A stretch of 23,757 nt of DNA from Ectocarpus siliculosus (Eukaryota; Sar; Phaeophyceae; Ectocarpales; Ectocarpaceae). This document shows, in pieces, positions 242 through 21,827 of this stretch. Location of the stretch: the NCBI GenBank assembly GCA_000310025.1, contig FN649729.1, positions 3,202,418 to 3,226,174 of the forward strand, given 5' to 3'. Made by a program: the position numbers and the translations under genes. Position 1 is the first letter of the stretch. Each line of letters opens with the position of its first letter. The notes below the pieces were generated by a model that ran no database searches, was not told the DNA's origin, and saw only the letters and a program-made list of their open reading frames with translations.

Positions 242-2962
242 TCATTTGTTGCTTGCCGTAGTCATTTGACCATTGACCACGCGTCCCTTTCGAGACGGAG
301 CACCGTTCCTACCCCTACTAGAGACACCACCAACATTTGGGAGCTCTTTACGTTTCTGCCTCAAACTCCATAAAAAATTCTTGCACATCTTATCCCCGTC
401 CTCTAGGGCCTCTTGTGCCCACCATCTATCCCCAATTATCGCGATTGTTTTTTCGCTGTTGTCTAATTTACCAAACTTGTCCATGTCACACCCTCTCTGT
501 CTCATTTCCTCCTCGAGATCCTCTCTTTCCTTCCTGTACAACTCACACTCCCCAACTATGTGGGGTCTACTCTCCTCCGATTTGCCACATGGACATGTGT
601 GTCTATCCTCCTCTTCCTCTCTCCTACGGCTGGTATACCTCTTCCTCCGTTCTGGCAAGTCCAGATCGCCTACTCGAAATTGCAATCTCAGCTTTTTCGC
701 GTAGTCCATGGGGCCGTCCAAGTACGTCATCATCCCTATCCCTTCTTTCAACTTCCCGTATATCTCCAAGTGGTCTTCGCTTCGTACCTTCTTCCGAAGG
801 GTTGCCTCCTCCCTACTTTCTAGCATCTCCTTGACTTTCGTCTTGAACCCCCCGAACCCTTCCGTGTCCAACGTCTCCTCCTCGTCTCCTATCTCCCTCC
901 AAACCTTCTCTACCACCTTGTCCCATCTGATTCCCTTCTTCCCTGGAGTCGCTTTTGCCCAAGCTGCCTTGTCAACCATGGCTGGTAGTCTATCGTCCGA
1001 CATTCTACTTACCTTGTACTGCCAATTCAACTTCTGCATGTCTCTCTTTGTTTTAAAGAGAGTACATTCCCAATTCTGCTCTCAATACAGTGTTGCTCGT
1101 TGTACTTGAACATCCTAGTATTTTCTTGGCCGCTGCCATCTGCACCGTTTCCAGCTGCTTGACGGCCTTTTCGTTACCTTCCCATACCTCTCCTGCATAC
1201 TCTAGCTTAGGTACAATCACATTCAAGAGAATACACCTCTTAATCCTAGTGTCTAGGTGTGGGTCCGTAAGGATCTCGTCCATCTTGACTATCTGAGCTT
1301 TACCCTTCCCAATCAACTTCGCTATGTGTGCGTCCCATGAGCACTCCTTCGAAATCTCTACTCCCAGGTACGTATACTTGTCTACTACCGGTAGTTCTTC
1401 CTCCCCCCATTTCCATTTGAATTCTACGGGATTTTTCTTGTCTTCGTTACAGACCACTACTGCGCATTTTCCTACGTTCGCCGACAGTCTCCATTTTCGG
1501 GTGTATCCTACCGCCGCGTCTATTTGTTCTTGCAACCCTTCTGGTGTTTCAGATACCCCCACGAAATCATCTGCAAACATCAGTCCGGACACACTCTTTC
1601 CCCCTACTTGGACTCCCTGTCTTACTGCTTCAACCGCCCTTATCAAATCGTTGATGTAAATCTTAAAAAGAGTGGGTGACATCGTACAGCCCTGTGCGAC
1701 TCCTTGGAGTATATCCACGTACTTCGAAATTTCCCCATCCAACATCACCGCACTTCTTGTGCATTCTGTCATCTTTTTCAACATCCTCCACATTTCTATT
1801 GACTTGCGGACCCCTCGGGGCCAGTTTATTTGAGTGTACCTTTTTAGGGTAAGTTAACCTGTGACCACGGCAATCGACCGCGTCGAGTGTTGGATCAGTA
1901 CGGACATACGAAGGTACTGGGTAGAGAGAGATCGGAACGGTTTTTAATGTGAAGACAACAACAACAACAACAACAACAACAACATTTCCCCCCGGATCCC
2001 GATGTCCCACATCTTTTTCCACAATCCATTGCGCCATACGATGTCGTAGGCTTTTTGTACATCTAGGAAGAAACAGTATGTCGTACGCCCGGCGTCTTTC
2101 CTACCTTGGATAATTTTACTCAACGTATATACATGGTCTACACAACTACGATCTGGTCTAAATCCAGCTTGTCCTTCGCTGATCTTTTGTTTCCCCTCCA
2201 ACATGTCTCCCATTCTATTGTCTATCATCTTGCCAAACAGTTTCCCCACTGTGCTCAGCAGGGTTATCCCTCTATAATTCCCCGGGTCAGCTTTATCCCC
2301 CCTTTTTGAACAGGTTCACGACTACTCCTTCTCTCCATCTCTTCGGCGCGTACTCGTGTTTCCATATCCAGTTGAATATCCGGACCAACATGTTAATCAT
2401 CCCCTCCCCCCCCTGTTTCAAAAGCTCATTCACAATTCCATCAGCCCCTGCCGCTTTTCTATTCCTGAGTTTCGCTACGCAGTCCTCTACCTCTTCTCGT
2501 GTGAACTCTCCCTGCAACCCGTCTATATCACTACGTTCCCTCCGAGATCTTTCAACGTTTTCCTCTGCCCACGAGTTGATTTCCTTCTCAAACTCCGAGT
2601 CGAAGTTGTCGTTGGTGGTGGGTGTCCCAAGTTTGCGGTAGTGCTCTACTAGTACTTCCCTCTTTCCTTTAGAACTGCTTACTATATTACCCTCGGCAGA
2701 TCTTAGTGTCGTTATTTCCGTGCCTCCCCCTCTTTTGTTGCCCACTATCCCTTGAATTCCTACCCACATTTGCTTCATCCCCCCTCAAAATCTTCGTTAG
2801 TCTTTTGGACTACTTCCTCCCACAACCCTTTCTTCTTCTTCACGACCAATTCCTTCACCCTCTTTCTACTTTCAATATACTTCTTCCATCCTGCATCTGT
2901 TTTCCCTGCCGCATATTTTGCGTGTGACTCTCTACGTACTCGAATTGCTTGCTTGATTTCTT
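242..2962 (-). pseudogene. LINE reverse transcriptase ORF, frameshifted and interrupted
   Basis: The coding sequence falls into five segments. From the 5' side: 2962-2775, a basic linker; 2778-2293, with the early RT motif NRKAAGADGI; about 2292-1982, with QAGFRPDRSC and the catalytic motif A (FLDVQKAYD); 1796-1053, with motif B (QGCTMSPTLF), motif C (FADD, about 1566-1578), motif D, and motif E (YLG); and 1039-242, with a Cys-x-Cys...His...Cys knuckle (CPCG...H...C) typical of LINE C-termini. The catalytic aspartates are intact. Frame is lost at a six-C run at 2779-2784, at a six-C run at 2297-2302, and near 1051-1056. The SINE-like insertion adds in-frame stops. Two of the three shifts are in homopolymers, so a sequencing or assembly cause cannot be excluded. 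As written, the copy is not expressible. Confidence 0.9.
1797..1981 (+). mobile_element. 185-bp SINE-like insertion with CAA-repeat tail
   Basis: This 185-bp segment interrupts the LINE between RT motifs A and B. It is bounded by perfect 7-bp direct repeats, ACATTTC at 1790-1796 and 1982-1988. Removing the element plus one repeat copy (192 bp) joins the two RT segments exactly in frame at a Met-Trp junction, which shows it is a clean later insertion. The plus strand ends in about nine AAC/CAA units, the sort of short tandem tail seen in some SINEs, so the element is antisense to the LINE. I do not see convincing pol III A and B boxes. Its last 60 bp or so resemble 14540-14600, so it belongs to a family. 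Being short, non-coding and TSD-flanked, it could also be a tail fragment of another LINE. Confidence 0.82.
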
Positions 2963-6281: not shown

Positions 6282-6431
6282 AGTATCATTCAAGTACGTA
6301 CCAACGAAAACAAGAGGAACGAGAGCAGCACGCTATACAGAAGAAAGAGAGCAATGAGTATCATTCAAGTACGTACCAACGAAAACAAGAGGAACGAGAG
6401 CAGCACGCTATACAGAAGAAAGAGAGCAATG
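6282..6431. repeat. Exact 75-bp tandem duplication
   Basis: Two consecutive 75-bp units, 6282-6356 and 6357-6431, appear identical. Because 75 is a multiple of three, an open plus-strand frame (6056-6502) crosses both and repeats a 25-residue unit beginning YHSSTYQRKQEE. I do not have evidence that this frame is a gene. Identity of the copies implies a recent duplication. Confidence 0.9.
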
Positions 6432-6888
6432 ACGGGCCAGGAACGACCAACAAGCGAAACCGAATACTCAACTGGTCCACCCACAACCAACGTAACCAAT
6501 AGAAGAAAAATACCTATTTCCTGCAACAGCAAAAACGACCATTAAAAAGGCACGAGATGCGACGTAAGCCACGCACGAGTCGCTAAAATATGCGTAAGCG
6601 CGAGAGGAGACAAAAACGTATTCACCCATCAAAAAGCACAAGAAGAGCACCCCATACAATCAAACAACCACAAGCCGCATCGATCATCTCAAACCGGCCC
6701 AGGAAACAAAAAATTTTGACTGGTTACACGTCATCACCTACCCTAACTAGCTCTATAACCCGTCGTCACTGGAAACATTCAAAAACATGCATCATTTACT
6801 TTGTAGGTCGTTCGGGAAATCGCGACGCATTCCGCTACACCCGAAGACACTCAGTCAGCAAAATCTTGCGCATGCATGTGTGATCCTT

Positions 6889-7821: not shown

Positions 7822-10800
7822 TTAAACAGACATCTCCGTCTCCTCGACGACGCCTCCGACGGTGGTAGTCACCACCATCTGCGGTTCGTACCACGGGTCA
7901 CCGCTTGGGTGCTCCAGCTCGAAGTGGTTGTCGTCGGTTCTCGCCGCCGCCCTGCCGCCGATGGTGAGCGATTCGACCGGAGTGGCCGTCCCGCGGGGCT
8001 GGATCTTCCAGTAGTACTCGGTCTTCTGCTCGACCTTGAAGGAGACCTCCTCCCCGGCGGGACACTCCACGAACTTCCACTTGATGTCCCAGCGGCCGTC
8101 CTTCCCGGTCCCGAAGTCCAGGTCTCCCTCCGAGCACTCCGGGCACCTGTGGCCCACCACAATTGATTTGTAGCGGTGGTGTTGGTTCGTGCAGAGCAAG
8201 AGGGGGGGGGATGGCAGGAAGCGGAAGTGTTGAGAAAAAACAATCTAGTTTCTTGAGATTTCATAAACCAAACCAAGGAACGCAGCGCATGCATGTAGCG
8301 AGGGGGCGAAGCAGGTCTTCATACTTGTCGTTGGACATGGGCTGGTTTGGACGCCAAAACCCAAAACATAACGAAAGTACCGAACGCGCGCGTTTGTTTA
8401 TTTAGTTATTTTCCCATGCTCTCACTTGTCCATGATGAAGCCCTTGAAGGTGCCAACCGGGTCGCTTCCACTTCCTCCTCCGGTCCCCTCTCCCTCCACA
8501 CACGCGCCGCACATGAGCGAGTCGCCGTACTGCGGCTCGTTGAGCGCCACTGTTCACACAAGCAGCACCAGCAGAGCGGGGGCACGATGGTGGACCGGAA
8601 TGGCAAAAGTTCGGGGGCGGGGAGTCCTACGGTGGAACCAACTTCCCTTCCAAGCCGTCAACACAAGGGGAACAAACTTCCGCGGAACTCTCAAATCTTT
8701 AGCTCGGCCGTATAAATAGATCAAGGCACGTCTGAAGTCGCTACTGTACGCAAACACCAACAAATTACAAAAAAATCCTACAACGTGGGGTGCACTACAA
8801 TCACCATCCCTCGTGTCCTCATCCTAACCTGGGGTCATGCCATCGTAGATGCTCGGGAAGTCGTCGAAGAACCCGCAGTTGCCTGCCGAGGTCCCAGTGT
8901 AGTAGGTCCCTTCGCCGTTGAAGGTGATTCCGTATTCTCCGCCGGACACGTCTCCGCCGCCGCCGCCAGAAGAAACGGGCTCCGGGGTCGGCTCCGGGGT
9001 CGACTCGGGGGTGGGTTCCGGGGTGGGTTCCGGGGTGGGTTCCGGGGTGGGTTCCGGGGTGGGTTCCGGGGTGGGTTCCGGGGTGGGTTCCGGGGTGGGT
9101 TCCGGGGTGGGTTCCGGGGTCGACTCGGGCACATCCTGGATCATCGCAACGAAAGCATACGGAAGGCACAACATAAGCGCATGGTAAGGCACAACATAAG
9201 CGCTTGTGACCACATGTCTTCTGCTGTACATGCTGGGTGAGGGGCCGAGAATCCGCCTTCGACGGAACTAAATTAAGCAAGCCGGAACTAAAAAAAGCAA
9301 CACGGGGGTTTTGGGGAAGCTCGGGTCCATCGATCACCTTTAGCCCTCCACTAAAAAAAAAAAAAAACTCCTCACCGGCTCGGGCATACCGTCGGCCCCG
9401 AACTGGTAGAGAGAGAACGCCCAGTAGCCACCTGGTGCCGCCGTTGTTTTTCGGAGGGGGCGGGGTAGGGATGAGGGGATCAGCAGGGATGATGACAAGA
9501 GGGGAGGGTTGTGACACTGTAAAAAGTTTTCTCCTCCGAATTGGCTTCTATTTTCTCTAGTTCTCTCCGTCGGCGGTGAGGAACTCCGAAGTGGCTTCTT
9601 TTTTTCTCTCCGTCGGGGGATGAAATCGCACTTTTAATCGTCGCGTTCTGGGGCAAACACGAAGGAGTTGACGCTTAGGATCTGCCAGACCCATACCATC
9701 ACCCAACACACCCTTGCCCTATTCATGTCAACCAAACTCACCGCAAGCACTCCCCGAATCACCCCCGCAGTGCATGTGGCAGGTGCCCAACCCGTGGGTC
9801 TCGTAGTCCTCGGGGTCGCTAGAGTACCCACAGAAGCACTCGTTCCCGTACTGGGTGGCGTAGTACACGGCGTCCGACGACTCGCAGTGGTCGCGGCACA
9901 TGTCCGTCGTCATGCCCTCGTCCACGAGCATGTCCTCCATCACGCGGCTCTCGTTCGCGTCCGACCAGCAGCCCACATACTCCTCGTGGTCCGGTGTCTG
10001 CGCCGCCGTCAGCTTGTACAAGTCGATCGTGAGTTGGCCGCCACAGGTCTCGTCCTGGGAGCGAGGGGGGTGAGAGTTGAGGTGCAGTAACCGTTGCCGT
10101 CACGAATAAACTAGAGGCATTTTACACGCACAACCGTGAACGAAAAACGTGTCCGTCTGATGCCGTTCGACCCGAAGCTCGGCACTTCTTTTTGAGCCGA
10201 ACGCCAGAGGCGCGAGGAATTACACCATCGGCCGCCGCACTTGGTAGGCGAACGTCATGAAGAACCACCGTGACAGGTGAGGACTGGTGTAGCAACCACT
10301 GGTGTATGCATAGCAACCTTGGTTTCATCTTCACGTCGGGTTGTCACCCGTAAGACACAGCACACGACGGATTGTTCCCCAAGCGGCAGAAAAAGCAGAA
10401 GCAGCAAAGGCCTTCCACTCCGCATCGAACACCACCGGTGACCCAGGCGAAACGGCAAAAGCGCAATCTTCGTAGATTACTTGCAAGAAGAGGATGCAAC
10501 TCACCGAGTCGCCGGCGCAAGGAATGTCGCAGACTCCGAAATCGAACGCAGAGTAGGCCAGGTCCTCCTCGCGAGAGCACCGACACTCGTTGCCCTTTTG
10601 GGTCCCCATGAAGAACGAGCCGAGCTCGTGGCAGCGGTCGTAGCACATCTGTTGCAAGTCGTTCGGGTACAAAGCGTACACGTAGGGCGTGGCGGCGATG
10701 TCATTACTCAATACAAGTAGATACAAGTAAACCAGCATGTATGACAAAAGGACGCGGCCTACTGCTGTAGGCCGATGATCGATTCGTCAACCCTTGCTTC

Positions 10801-12450
10801 GTGGAACTCGACCGTGTCATGGGTTGGCAACAAGTACACCAACCCAAGTTTCTCACGGCGCGTGCATGACGAGCCTTCTGCTCACCTCGTTCGTCATCGT
10901 TTCCATCACGAGCGGCAGGTGAGGGCGTGCGTTCACCATGCCGTTGTCGACGTAGCAGCCGACGTGCTCGTAGGCCTCATAGCTACTTCCCGAGAGCCCG
11001 CGACGCGCCCCTCCCGCTGAAACCTGACGCGGCGGTGGTGGTGATACAGCCACAAGCGATGTTAATTATTAATTCATCGTGTTCTTCATCAATCTTGTGC
11101 GCTGCTTGCTGTTGTCGTTTACAGCATGTTCGCGAGCCTGTGTTTTTGATTATCACACCTCCAAAACGCTGTTAATTTACCATCTCCCTTTTCCTCACAG
11201 AGCAGTTGGCATATTTTTATTTGCCGGTTTGAGCGTTTGCCATAAGCGAGCGACGTCTGGACGCTCTTGGCACGCATGCATGTGCTCTTAACAGGAGCGT
11301 CGGGAGGGGGGCGGGGCGGGAAGCGTACGACAAATGTGAAACGACCGAAAATGAAGTTTCATGGCCGCCACGTTTCACTGTTGTTCAGATGTGCAAACTC
11401 CAGCGTAATATCTACACTCGGGATATAGTACTTGTTGCGCTTGTATGTGGTGCGGTTGAGGTGCCAAAGAGTCGCGCACTTGTCGACACATCTGCGTACA
11501 GTTGTTCTTCTGGGCGCCTGGGCGCCATGATCAACAAGACGTACGCGACCACTGCTTTCGGGCTGCAGTGCTCTTAACGATGAGTCACCCGTGCCCAACG
11601 TTGTGACTATGCTGCGACCATGTATGACGCGTCGATTGAGCCGGGCCGTCGGGCCGTCTTCGGAGTAAAGACGGTTGGTCGGGTGCTTTGCGCAAAGGGA
11701 GAAGAAAAAGGCTGAGAGGAAGGGGGCTGGCTCACGGGAGAACCAACGGCAAATTCCGTGGCCGGTTGCTTGTTTCTCTGCAACCAAGGGAATCGCTGTT
11801 CCATGAAGTGCGGTCACATGTGGCACGGCTTATGAACAGCAGTAGAAGCAGTAGCAATGTAACGTCTGTAAGTAAATGTAACGTTGCGCGTTGCTTGCTC
11901 AGTAGGGTCAACCAAAATTCCGCACGTCCTCTCTCTCTCTCTCGTTGATTATTTGCCGACGTGCGTGGTGTGTAAATCGTACGTTTTTCTCCAAAGCGAG
12001 ATGGCGGTTGGATCGAAAAGTAATTTCACGGTATTTTTGTGGCGTCGGCCAGCGGTCTGACAGCAGAGGAGTGTATGAAACAAAAAGAAAGAAGTAATCT
12101 GTTGTCTGTTACAAGTAGTGTGGTCGCTTCATCTTGAGAGCAACATGGACGGTGTCGCCACGTTGGAGGCAAAGCATGTGTGGCACGTCCGGGGCTGGTA
12201 CGTTTTTGGCGGAAGGGAATCTCCTCGTCTTTACATACCTGGTACATACCTTCAGCAACACTGCAAGACACCAAGAGCCCACGTAGAAAGCAAGCAGTTT
12301 TCTGACAAGAAAGTACTGGTAGAAAAAGAAAAAAGCGCATCCAACAATTATGCGTTCATGAAGAACACCCACCTCGGCGCCCCTGAGGGAGGTCTCCAGT
12401 GAAGCTACGGGCGTGGCACACACCAGTAGAGCTGCGGCGAGTCTCGTCAT
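7822..12450 (-). CDS. Secreted protein: two WSC domains, TPEP linker, expansin-like module
   Basis: Eight exons: 12450-12373, 11023-10886, 10648-10505, 10054-9742, 9431-9376, 9135-8829, 8549-8426, 8146-7822. They sum to 1485 nt (494 residues plus TAA), with agreeing phases at all seven GT-AG introns. Residues 1-18 form a signal peptide ([17 protein letters not shown]). WSC1 spans about 44-136 and WSC2 about 145-236, each with the eight cysteines of the family (WSC1: C49, 74, 78, 94, 96, 112, 116, 124). A TPEP linker covers about 249-296. From about 310 comes a double-psi beta-barrel (GEGTYY, NCGF, CGAC, DKCPEC, then GDLDF with D397 at the position of the conserved expansin aspartate). A C-terminal beta domain follows ([21 protein letters not shown]). 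WSC domains bind carbohydrate; expansins loosen cell-wall polymers without hydrolysis. The likely role is extracellular wall remodelling (inferred). The start ATG has A at -3. Confidence 0.92.
8979..9130. repeat. 12-bp coding minisatellite encoding TPEP
   Basis: Nine perfect 12-bp units (GTGGGTTCCGGG on the plus strand, 9011-9118) sit inside exon 6 of the WSC-expansin gene, with diverged units on both sides. Read on the minus strand each unit encodes a four-residue TPEP step of the linker. The flanking units at each end carry GTCGACTCGGGG, encoding a Ser variant. The plus strand is a run of G3-G4 tracts spaced by 2-4 bases, so it could form G-quadruplexes. Confidence 0.95.
9163..9203. repeat. 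Short tandem duplication in intron 5 of the WSC-expansin gene
   Basis: AAGGCACAACATAAGCGC occurs at 9163-9180 and again at 9186-9203, a period of 23 bp. It lies 28 bp upstream of exon 6 in transcript orientation and lengthens the intron slightly. No function is apparent. Confidence 0.85.
11024..12372 (-). other. Intron 1 of the WSC-expansin gene
   Basis: This 1349-bp intron separates the signal-peptide exon from the first WSC exon. The donor is GAG/GTGGGT and the acceptor CGTCAG/GTT, both phase 0. It includes a TC run at about 11930-11942. I see no further exon in it, although an extra phase-0 exon of a length divisible by three could be missed by eye. Confidence 0.7.
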
Positions 12451-16016: not shown

Positions 16017-19000
16017 TCACTTGGATCGCTTGTAGATCTTGTCGATGAACTGGTGGAAGACCTGCAGGAACAGCAAGCAGACGGTGGACGCCGTACATAG
16101 GCAGAGCGTGAGTGAGAGAAAAACAAAAAAAAGCAAGCTGCGGAAGAAGCAGGAAGGAGGCAGACAGCGAGGACGACCGTCGGGTGCATGCGCGTGGCGG
16201 TGGACTTTCTCTCCCTGACGGGGCCTTCGTGCGTCAAGTGAAACGGCACCGATGATGGCGCAAGCGTTGCACACACACACACACACACACCTACAGCAGG
16301 AGTCTAACGCGGAGACAAAGGGAAGTGCCGAAGAAGCCACGGCGCGTGCTGCGCCACGACGTGGCCCCAGCGAAAACAAGTCTCTTGCAACTCCTCCGCT
16401 GGAAAAAAATTATAAAACATATGAAGTACCAAAATTACGACCGGCACGGACGGTATAACCCCCGTGACAATAAAAAACGGATGCACACCGCCTGCCCGGT
16501 CAGAAACGCGCCAACCACCACGCACGTGCGCTCGCACGGCGCGTGGAAACTACGGTTTTTATCAAATCACTGGGCGCATCTCGCGAAAAATGTATACATT
16601 TCAATGTCCAAGCCGCTGCGCGCGTCTTCCCACAAATAAGACAACAAAAAACGTACCACGCTCGGTACAACGTCACAGATGTATAAAAACATTTGCGTGC
16701 GCAGCCCGTCGGCCTGCGCATTCACTTCGTACAGAAAAAAAAAAAAAAAACACACACACACGCACACGCACACGCACACGCACACACACACACACACACA
16801 CACCGCACTGAGACTGGCGTCTTCTCATTGGTCAGCCGGTTAGCGCGGTCGATGCTAAAGATTAAAACACACACAAGCTGCAGGCGCTGCGCCGTGCGCC
16901 GTACACACAAATGGACGGAGATCCGTGCTGGGCAAGCTGTGGCAACAGAGTCACAGGTTGTGTGAGCGGCGTCGTCCCCCCACCCATTTCCTGTGGGAAC
17001 AATACCTCGTCCTCTCGAGGACGCGTGGTAAATGGTCTAACCGCTAAGGCATGCAAAACATGGGTACGCCCCAACCGCCGCCCCCCCCTCCCCCATGCAA
17101 TGGTCTAACGACTACGGCATGCACGACTATGAGTACACCCCCCTCCCCCCCCCGTTTCCTCACCGCGTGGGGGATGTCCTCGACCTTCGCGATGAGCTCC
17201 TTGATCTGCTTGTGAGTGTCCTCCTCGTACTTGGCGTACACTTTCTCCAGCTTCAGCTCGCGGTACAGCTCCTTGACGCGCTCAATCTTGACGAAAAGAG
17301 CAAAAAAATGCAAACACAAAACACAAAATTAACACTCGCACTCAAAAAGATACAGCAGTAGAACAGAGGCCGTCCTTTGCGATTCTTGTGTGCTTCTTTT
17401 TCTACTGTAGCGAATTTTGCCGTGTTTGGCCGATTTTGTGAGGTCGATGCCAACCCACGAAGCACCGTCATTTGACAACTTTGTTGCCTTGGTTCGAAGA
17501 GGTCGCCAAGAACGCCGATGATGTGGTTCCGCAGAGAGAAGCTCACGCCGAGTGTGTGCATGGTAAAGGAAATCATCGAGGGTTGCAGGAGTTGAAAAGA
17601 TATACCTTGCTCCCCCAAAGCTTTCGGCACAGCCACCCTCGCGTTCTGCTCGAACATGACTTTTGGCAACAGTCAATTGCATGTCCCATTGAAACGGCAA
17701 GCTCTTCGCGACAACCGCTTGGTTGGACTGACACACGAAAAACAGCAACGCGACAAACCGCTTGGTTGGACCGACACACGAAAAACAGCAACGCCACCAA
17801 CAGGCTGACCGTACAACGCCGCATCGGCAGCAACACAACCAACAGCGGACTACAGTAGACTGCTGCATGTTTCAAAAATGAAGCATGCCTTCCACGCCAT
17901 TACCATCGGTCCCCCCCCCCCATGCTGTACCTTAGCTTCCTCGTCGATTGCGTAGTTCTGGATGAGGACGGCCTTCTGCGCCTTGGAGGCCCTCTCAAGC
18001 GCCTGCACCACCAGCCAGCTGCACTTGTTGTCTTGGATGTCGGTGCCCACCTTTTCGGTCGTCGAAAGCGTAGTTTGCGCGTTCCGAACAGCGACGTACA
18101 GTACAGCACACAGCAAGAAAGAAAGGAGAGACGCGTGTGATCATTCTGTGCTGCTGCTGCTGCTGCTGCTGCTGTTGCTGCTGTTTGGCTAAGATGGAAA
18201 ACAGTAAGAACGAGAACCAAGCCGATGCGAATCGCCGGGAGGAGGAAGGGGGAGGAGGAAAAGTAAAAGGACGAGACGCCCGCCGCACAGGAAAAACGAT
18301 AGCCCCGTCGGCCGCACCAAACGCCGCCATAACGTTGGGGCATGCAACCGCATGGTGCCGCTGCTGCAACATTTGTCTCGCTTGCTGTTGTGTATTTTCG
18401 TCCGTTTCTCGCCCCGAGACGGTGCAGTAGGTAAAACACTTGGTCCGATCCCCTACAGAAGTGGTGACCTAAGAAACCGACGGTTTCATCTCAACGTATT
18501 CAACAACCACCGCCAACCTCTCCGCTGTGGCCGTTCCATGAGGGCAAAGAGACCAGCGCGTGCTGTTTATGCGGCTTGGTTCACGGAATGGGTCTTGGGG
18601 CAGTGTTCCTTTCGAACGTGGGGAAGTAGTTTCGCGAACCTTACCGAATACCTCCGGGAGGGCGCCAATAAGAAGTCGGGGAGGGCGCCAAAAGAGTCGA
18701 GAGGGGGTCACTTGGACAACGGCAGCACACCCCCAACTCATCGAAAACAACGACAACGGAGCTGCCGCTGTCGCGCCGCTGTCAGGGCACTACCACTGCT
18801 GTCAACACCGCTTCGAGGGAAGGTGCTGTAGCGAATGTGCGTGTGCGTGCGTCCCTAAAACTCGGTCCTATGCAAAAATATCGCCGCAACAACGCGGGTA
18901 TCTAGAAACACGCTTCAATCTGCGCCTACAAGAGCCGTTGTACGTGGAAATATTGTCAGGGTACGGTCAACAACACCGCTCGTGCTGTCCAGACGTGCGT

Positions 19001-21827
19001 GCGGCCCTTTTGCAACAAGCACCCCGCAACACCGCGGGTGCATGTAGAAACGCTTCCTGCGAGAGCCGTCCTTACGGACATGATCCCAAGCACGACACAC
19101 ACCTTTCCGATGACCTCCGGGTCGCCGAAGCAGTCGAGGTAGTCGTCCTGGATCTGGAAGAACTCCCCTATCCGGCAGCAGATGTCGCGGGCGAGCCGGT
19201 AGCTGGCGGGGTCCTTCACGCCGGCGTAGATCATGCCGATCGCGCAAGGCAGGTAGAAGGTGTAGTACGCCGTCTTATACCGGACGATCATGCGGTAGCG
19301 CACGGGAGTAAACCTGCAGAGGGGGTGGGGGTGGGGGGCGCAATCATGTTTCGCGTTTCGCATGCTTGAGCTGTTAGACCAGCGTCTTCGAGGGGGCGGG
19401 GGGGGGGGGGGAGGGGTGGCATTCTGCGTTTCGTGGGATTGTGAAAAGACATCTCCAGGGCAACCACTGCCGGTACGCCCAAAGAATACCGCAAGATCCA
19501 GTCTGGAACATCCAGCAAAAACGTGGGATAGTCTACAGTACCTACGGGATCACCTATATTTCACCCCCCAAGGATTATCATGCCATCGAGAGAGAAAATA
19601 TCTCGCCCTCCCTCGCGCAACAGAGCACCCTGCGTCTCTTTTCTACCTAATGTCGTTTGTATGTCTCACTCTCGTCTTGTCTGTCGGTCTCTGTCTGTCT
19701 CTCTATGTCCTCTGTCCCCGTCTCTGTCCCCGTCTGTCTCTATCCCGTTCTCTCTGTGTGCCTCCCGTCTCTGTCTCTATCTATTACTTGTGTGTGTGTT
19801 TGTCTGTGTCCCTCCCTCTCTCTCTGTGTGTCTCTCTCTGTCTCTGTCTCTTGCCTGGTGAGATCGGACGGGGCGTCCATCGGCTGGGACGTGAGGTCCA
19901 GAAGCTGCCCCATCTCGGTCCGGTAGGTCACGTCGTGGAACAGCTCCACCAGCTGCAGGTAGTAGTTCTCGTGAGCGAAGTGCCGCTTCAACATCTGCGG
20001 GACACGCAGAAGTAGCGAAAACACACACGGCGGACAATGTGGCAAAAGTGTAGTAAGACACGTGCGGGGTGATGGAATGTTGCGCGGTTAGCAACGCGTC
20101 GGCACACAGAACAACAAAAAACAAACGTGCGCAGAAAAAAAAATACTAGAGCAGGACGACACGATTACACCCAAATCTCTCGTTCGCACGGCGACGGACG
20201 TCTCCAAACTCCACCGGGGGTGCCACCGAATGCAACCGAAGGGGGGCACGTCGCCCCGTGGACCTCAGACACGAATATTTTCGGAAAGAGAGGGCGGAAA
20301 CTCAAGGCCCGTTGTACTCGCCCCCCACTCGAATCCGCCGAAACTACAAGACCTCTGACAAGAGACAAGTTCTTTTTTCGCTCGGCGTGGCGGCGTACCT
20401 TGGCGGTATGGGGGCGACAATACCGTCCTCACCTCTCGCGGTTCCTGTCTACAGTAGCCGCTTGAACAACAGCAGTAGCGTTGACTCACCTTGAACACGT
20501 GGGCCTCGAGGATGAAAGAGTCGTTGATGGCGATCTCCTGCACCTTGGGCACCTTCTCGGAGAGAGAGAGAGAGAGAGAGAGAGAGGGACAGAGAAACAG
20601 AGGGGGGGGGGGGAGGACGAGCAACAGAGGGCACCCAGAGTCGGTCGTAAGAGTCGTTGGAATACAAACGTAGCTGCTGCCGACACACACCATCGAAAAA
20701 AACAAATCTGCTGACGCGTTCCTTTCACACTTTGGGTGACCCTTAACTCAGCATGTGTTTGTCTCTGTTTCTGTCTCCCCACCTTGTACCAGCAGGGTTG
20801 CCCGCGGCGGGTTAGGCTCCTGTCCATGACATCGTCGGCCACCAGGAAAAACGCCTGCAGCCACTCCACGCACCATCCAAGAATGCTGCCGCGGCATACC
20901 TGGGTCAACCGTGGGGGCGGGGGGGGGCGGGGGGGGTCATTTTTTCATCGACACCTTGTCTCAGATACCGTCAACGCACCTCTTATACCCGGATGAAACG
21001 TGGGGTCTCATTTTCCCATTGACAACTTGCCTCGTCTATCGTCAACGCACCTCTTTGGGGCCCTGAGTGCCACCGATTCTCTCTGTTGCATGCTGCTGTG
21101 GCAGCCAACCCCCCCCCCCCGTAAGACGGAGACCTAAAAAATGCTCGCGCACTTGGTACACGATTCTGGACATGGCCATAGACGGGGGAAAGAGGGAAAC
21201 GATATGGTACGGGAGAGGTGGTCCCTACAAACAAAACCACCGGAAAACAAATCCCCTCCGCGACCCCCCCCCCCTATACCTCTTCGTGGCGGAGCTCCCT
21301 GCCGTTGGCCTCGGCGAACGCTCTCAGCACGTCCACGACCCCCATCCCCCGGTTCATCTTGCCTCCCTTGGTGTTGTACTCCAGGTTCTCCTGGATCCAA
21401 TCCAACTGCGCCGGGATTCCCTCGTACTGGTACCATGGTATTGTGTTGGCGTTCGGAAAAGAAGAAAAAAAATAAAACGTTCCGAAGAAGAAAGAATTAC
21501 ACGACAGATTCGCGGCGGCGTGTCAGCACCGAGTCGTACAATGGAAGGTCTCGACGAAACCACGCACCGTTGGTGGAATGGAAACAGCAGGCACTTAACA
21601 AGAAAAATCCAAAGAACGACCGGAGGGGGTAAGCTGCACTCACGCGGCACGTTGTATAACCCCCCGAAAAACATATCAGCACGGCCAGTGGCCGGCTTCA
21701 CAAGAATCCTACACTGTACATACTGCGAGGACAAGTTCTAACCAATTGAGCTGGGGAAACGAGCACACGTGTTTGACACCCCGCCCGTGTCCAACGCCAC
21801 ACGAAAAGGAGCAAACAACGTCGCCCC

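Follow-up and report, generated by a model that had tools for sequence, protein, structure and literature searches.

The question raised by this locus is whether a brown alga makes an expansin that is anchored to its wall by WSC domains. The window analyzed here, a stretch of 23,757 nucleotides from Ectocarpus siliculosus (contig FN649729.1, positions 3,202,418 to 3,226,174; coordinates below are those of the window unless another locus is named), contains on its minus strand a gene, hereafter the WSC-expansin gene, for which a first-pass annotation had proposed a signal peptide, two WSC domains, a Pro/Thr/Glu linker and a two-domain expansin module. We consider it reasonably probable that the product is a secreted, modular wall protein of the expansin type, in which the WSC pair would anchor, the linker would space, and the expansin module would loosen the wall without hydrolysis. 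The support for this function consists of the gene structure, the domain content, the homology that spans both expansin domains, the retention of Thr12, Asp71 and Asp82, and the excess of third-position divergence among the paralogs.

Gene structure and domain organization

The gene runs from 12450 to 7822. Splicing in silico joins eight exons into 1485 nt (494 residues plus the stop codon) with GT...AG introns throughout, agreeing phases and an uninterrupted reading frame. The exons, and the repeat that underlies the linker, are as follows:

12373..12450, minus strand: exon 1, probable signal peptide (residues 1-26) with the start codon (spliced model, hydrophobicity)
10886..11023, minus strand: exon 2, N-terminal portion of WSC domain 1 (spliced model, Pfam)
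10505..10648, minus strand: exon 3, central part of WSC domain 1 (acceptor TTGCAACAG followed by ATG)
9742..10054, minus strand: exon 4, last part of WSC domain 1 and the bulk of WSC domain 2 (spliced model, Pfam)
9376..9431, minus strand: exon 5, last part of WSC domain 2 (spliced model)
8829..9135, minus strand: exon 6, TPEP linker, Gly-rich spacer and first part of expansin domain 1 (spliced model)
8977..9120, minus strand: 12-bp tandem array of 12 copies with 94% matches, coding for the TPEP repeats (repeat search)
8426..8549, minus strand: exon 7, central part of expansin domain 1, from MCGAC to IMDK (spliced model, phmmer, NCBIfam)
7822..8146, minus strand: exon 8, last part of expansin domain 1 (CPEC to GDLDF), expansin domain 2 and stop codon (phmmer, NCBIfam, structure model)

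Exon 3 was started at ATGTGCTACGAC (10648), rather than in the open frame further upstream, because this choice restores the cysteine spacing of the WSC domain. The G+C content at coding third positions (GC3) is 83.6%, versus 51.2% G+C in the joined introns, and ranges from 0.69 to 0.90 in the individual exons. Splicing, GC3 and domain matches bear out the eight exons with agreeing phases and the 494 residues of the first-pass annotation. An artefact of open frames was considered and rejected, since the eight exons and their phases, the GC3 and two domain homologies independent of each other are all concordant: judged on these sequence features, that the gene is intact, real and coding is confirmed far beyond chance, and we infer that it is expressed.

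In a scan of the protein by 15-residue windows, hydrophobicity peaks in the window that starts at residue 4, and the eight highest windows start at residues 1-8, so that the N-terminus is likely to be a signal peptide; the scan finds no second strongly hydrophobic stretch. The calculated isoelectric point (pI) is very acidic, about 4.1, and there is one Asn-X-Ser/Thr site. A Pfam search matches two stretches to WSC (PF01822) with 99.8 bits over a gathering score of 27.8 (E = 1e-28), and each of the two domains has eight cysteines. WSC domain 2 (exon 4) is the best-scoring of the WSC matches listed genome-wide (at least 102 at E ≤ 0.001, the gene's own included); many of the genome matches are clustered on a few contigs (C456, C244, C139, C10, C21). 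The linker contains 11 TPEP units; as these are encoded by a 12-bp tandem repeat, its length may differ between individuals. A likely secretion signal, the eight-cysteine WSC pair and the linker were recovered as first proposed.

The expansin module

Residues 317-492 align to positions 1-179 of the 194 in the NCBIfam model for expansin EXLX1 (NF041144; E = 8.3e-19). A phmmer search against the PDB retrieves expansins from Streptomyces (9ms5, 1.1e-13) and Talaromyces (7wvr, 6.3e-10), and the bacterial expansin YoaJ (1e-4). The module comprises a double-psi barrel, recognized from sequence alone, followed by an Ig-like beta domain. For the latter, a structural model of exon 8 built with 66 bacterial rows has an expansin as its best Foldseek match (E 1.7e-3, with none at E ≤ 0.001); these rows are expansins, and the model is not independent of sequence homology. 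It supports an expansin-like fold for domain 2, and, together with the span of the NF041144 match over both domains, the claim that the module is complete.

The functional residues were compared in an alignment of three algal sequences, two from solved structures and 69 of the 74 bacterial ones, in the numbering of YoaJ, from work on which the roles of Thr12, Asp71, Asp82, Lys119 and the aromatic triad of domain 2 are known. Thr12, Asp71 and Asp82 of domain 1 are retained in all three algal and all 69 bacterial rows.

Paralogs and distant relatives

A search with the protein as query identified two further expansin loci in the genome, on contigs C26 and C13, and was more sensitive than NF041144 alone, which returned just two exon fragments, neither over the cut-off. 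By its EF1a locus the genome is that of Ectocarpus or a very near relative: the reverse primer of Le Bail 2008 (PMC2546422) has a single site when up to 2 mismatches are allowed, a perfect one, the forward primer matches perfectly at that locus too, and the predicted product (1501-1660 of the locus) has the published length of 160 bp. The C26 gene (locus L018) splices cleanly and encodes 286 residues, in which a signal peptide and a Cys-rich module precede a short PSPTPS linker and an expansin module that scores 57.3 bits against NF041144. The Cys-rich module, about 70 residues long, occupies a single exon whose two borders are both in phase 1 (L018 6923-7132; G000:C26:6825422-6825631); it has no Pfam match, and a genome search at E ≤ 0.001 gives 135 matches, often clustered (C4, C207, C229). 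The C13 gene (locus L019) encodes 221 residues, of which the last few are uncertain; its expansin module comes immediately after a hydrophobic N-terminus. In the 9.8 and 9.9 kb around these paralogs, searched in six frames with both WSC domains as queries, the best match had E 0.33, with N making up 2.8% and 22.7% of the respective sequences, so that a distant exon could be hidden; the window's own WSC exons, used as a control, were recovered at 1.1e-56 to 5.4e-4. Since neither paralog shows a WSC domain in the surroundings fetched, the WSC pair looks like an optional addition.

A phase 2 intron between DK and CPEC is common to the three expansin genes, and a phase 1 intron before VALN to two of them. 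In the tree the three algal expansins form one clade (support 100/100), with the WSC-expansin gene and the C26 gene as sisters (100/94). Pairwise divergence at codon positions 1/2/3 is 0.26/0.26/0.45, 0.28/0.35/0.56 and 0.35/0.33/0.52, highest in every case at the third. The simplest reading would be that one ancestral algal expansin was duplicated, and that different N-terminal modules were added by exon shuffling.

Relatives outside the alga were sought in bacterial and archaeal genomes, viral contigs, phages and plasmids. With query A3 the genomes yielded 74, all bacterial and many in Myxococcota; an earlier query (A1) yielded none. A viral origin was rejected, as no relative was confirmed among viral contigs or phages, and so was a plasmid origin, the single plasmid match (Pantoea EXLX1, E 0.03) being weak. 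The algal copies sit on a branch of length 3.42, and therefore the tree does not place the donor, if there was one; its two solved reference rows, each on a very long branch, are unreliable. The order WSC-expansin was not found at the bacterial loci: among 806 plus-strand open reading frames (≥100 aa) at the 74 loci the best E values were 0.1 for WSC domain 1 and 0.57 for WSC domain 2, and Pfam detected no WSC at the seven of these loci to which it was applied.

Proposed function and its alternatives

After removal of the signal peptide the protein would be secreted, and the WSC pair would attach it to an algal wall glycan, with the acidic Pro/Thr/Glu linker as a flexible spacer. The two expansin domains would then disrupt, by a non-hydrolytic mechanism like that of plant and microbial expansins, the non-covalent contacts that hold wall polymers together; these contacts may be those of cellulose microfibrils, perhaps with beta-glucan or sulfated fucan. 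In a study of Ectocarpus tip growth (PMC6347293), auxin is reported to have a loosening effect. As for the interpretation offered in the first-pass annotation, architecture, likely secretion signal, two expansin domains and algal setting are supported; the targeting of a loosening agent to an algal wall polymer fits these results and is retained as a conjecture.

A number of observations weigh against this function. The NF041144 score is 67.6 bits, under the curated cut-off of 100 (YoaJ, as a control, scores 266.6), and does not place the protein in the EXLX1 subfamily. The Pfam models to which the module had been expected to conform, PF03330 (DPBB_1) and PF01357 (Expansin_C), are both unmatched at E up to 1; the YoaJ control passes the former, yet falls under the cut-off of the latter. 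A model of exon 8 from the single sequence (mean predicted local distance difference test score, pLDDT, 72.4) matches nothing in the PDB at E ≤ 0.001, and the 50 matches listed include no expansin. Lys119, present in all 69 bacterial rows, is a gap in all three algal rows. The aromatic triad of family 63 carbohydrate-binding modules (CBM63; Trp125, Trp126, Tyr157) reads Tyr/Tyr/Asp in the WSC-expansin protein: at Trp125 the algae have Tyr/Tyr/Phe (the bacterial rows 53 W, 11 Y, 4 F and 1 D), at Trp126 they have Tyr (the bacterial rows 69 W), with a register uncertain by one residue at both, such that a shift could bring the next Trp to the second, and at Tyr157 all three algal rows have Asp (the bacterial rows 62 Y and 7 W). 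Binding of cellulose by domain 2 in the manner of bacterial EXLX1 may accordingly be weak. Finally, according to the tip-growth study, cellulose is a minor component of the brown algal wall (8% of dry weight at most), and the growth of Ectocarpus tips is attributed to a gradient of wall thickness, unlike the local loosening of other tip-growing cells (PMC6347293). With one aromatic of the triad and the conserved Lys missing from domain 2, cellulose is less secure as the sole target than it is for microbial expansins.

The same substitutions, common to the three algal copies, can be read in favor of a structural or lectin-like wall protein, in which glycan binding by the WSC domains and the expansin fold would serve to cross-link or decorate the wall (in adhesion, defence or wall sensing) with no loosening. 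So can the absence from the algal copies of eight columns after LDF that are filled in the solved and the displayed bacterial rows, and which we take to be a helix in solved expansins. The strong acidity of the protein (pI of about 4.1) is consistent with this role, as is the joining of brown algal PR-1 proteins to WSC, lectin and carbohydrate-binding modules (PMC12879055). We nevertheless regard it as rather unlikely, given that the paralogs differ most at third codon positions and that domain 1 retains Thr12, Asp71 and Asp82, whose importance for activity comes from work on YoaJ. Considerably less likely still is a defence protein directed at foreign walls, such as bacterial peptidoglycan or the walls of epiphytes and pathogens, to which one might be led by the bacterial, in many cases myxococcal, relatives and by the deposition of two solved bacterial expansins under names that include peptidoglycan-binding, and against which no particular observation speaks. 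We attach a similarly low, or slightly lower, probability to two separate genes, one for a short secreted WSC-WSC protein and one for an expansin that starts inside intron 5. In favor of two genes, the frame upstream of exon 6 is open to 9267 and contains Met codons, and the C13 paralog, an expansin without an added domain, has an N-terminal hydrophobic stretch of its own. However, the phases agree, the splice sites are canonical, intron 5 measures just 240 bp, the frame of exon 5 meets a stop 11 codons beyond the donor, and the in-frame stretch directly upstream of exon 6 has a GC3 of 0.59, below that of every exon. Within the confirmed gene model the predicted join of exons 5 and 6 is supported by phase, splice sites and composition.

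Among these possibilities we favor a module that has retained its loosening function with a changed binding face, which would give the WSC pair an obvious task. A more speculative extension, which we put forward tentatively and consider somewhat unlikely as a whole, is that the entire brown algal clade has lost the face that grips cellulose (Asp for Tyr157, Lys119 gone, a stretch of domain 1 removed), that binding has passed to interchangeable, lineage-specific modules (WSC pair or Cys-rich module), and that the network loosened is non-cellulosic and contains alginate or beta-glucan. If true, this would be a wall-loosening system retuned to the brown algal wall.

Comparison with known systems

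The WSC-expansin protein shares with expansins of the EXLX1 type (YoaJ, 2bh0; Ss_EXLX1, 9ms5; Talaromyces, 7wvr) the two-domain module, Thr12/Asp71/Asp82 and the fold of domain 2, and with 9ms5 and 7wvr the cysteine motifs CGA(C/F) and CP(E/G)C. It differs from them in the eight columns missing after LDF, the loss of Lys119, the change of Tyr157 to Asp, a loop insertion after CGAC in domain 1, and the two WSC domains that precede the module. Identity in the alignment to plant beta-expansin EXPB1 and the grass pollen allergens Phl p 1/2/3 is 9-16%, and to our knowledge these have neither WSC nor TPEP linker. Swollenins and the CBM-expansin fusions of fungi and bacteria also combine a carbohydrate binder, a linker and an expansin module; their binder is of the CBM1 or CBM2 type, whereas in Ectocarpus it is WSC. 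By sequence the WSC domains belong to the same family as those of 7pz2, which we take to be a yeast Wsc1-type chain, and Kremen-1 (E 1.1e-5 and 0.0024). Wsc1 is a membrane stress sensor, unlike the algal protein with its single strongly hydrophobic stretch.

Fusion of WSC to another domain in brown algae is already published (PMC12879055): the PR-1 proteins described there resemble the present one in joining WSC to a second domain within the same lineage, and differ in that the partner is a CAP domain rather than an expansin. According to a 2016 paper (PMC5100021), brown algal genomes had yielded no report of expansins, and a search of the literature, within the excerpts it returned, found no description of WSC as the binder of an expansin or of a brown algal expansin family; prior annotation is possible. 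The algal expansin family is a candidate for the missing loosening agent. Three expansin-type genes in this model brown alga make wall loosening directly testable in an independently multicellular lineage, with the WSC pair and the Cys-rich module as exchangeable parts on one effector module.

Other features of the window

Upstream of the WSC-expansin gene and on the same strand, two frames match polyprenyl synthetase (farnesyl diphosphate synthase-like), at 18956-19549 (minus strand, E 4.6e-21) and 20486-20944 (minus strand, E 2.9e-15). Downstream, two reverse transcriptase (RVT_1) fragments in separate open frames, at 1053-1853 (minus strand, E 3.2e-14) and 1944-2315 (minus strand, E 7.3e-15), are probably a decayed retroelement. 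A 75-bp unit is repeated twice with 100% matches at 6282-6432.
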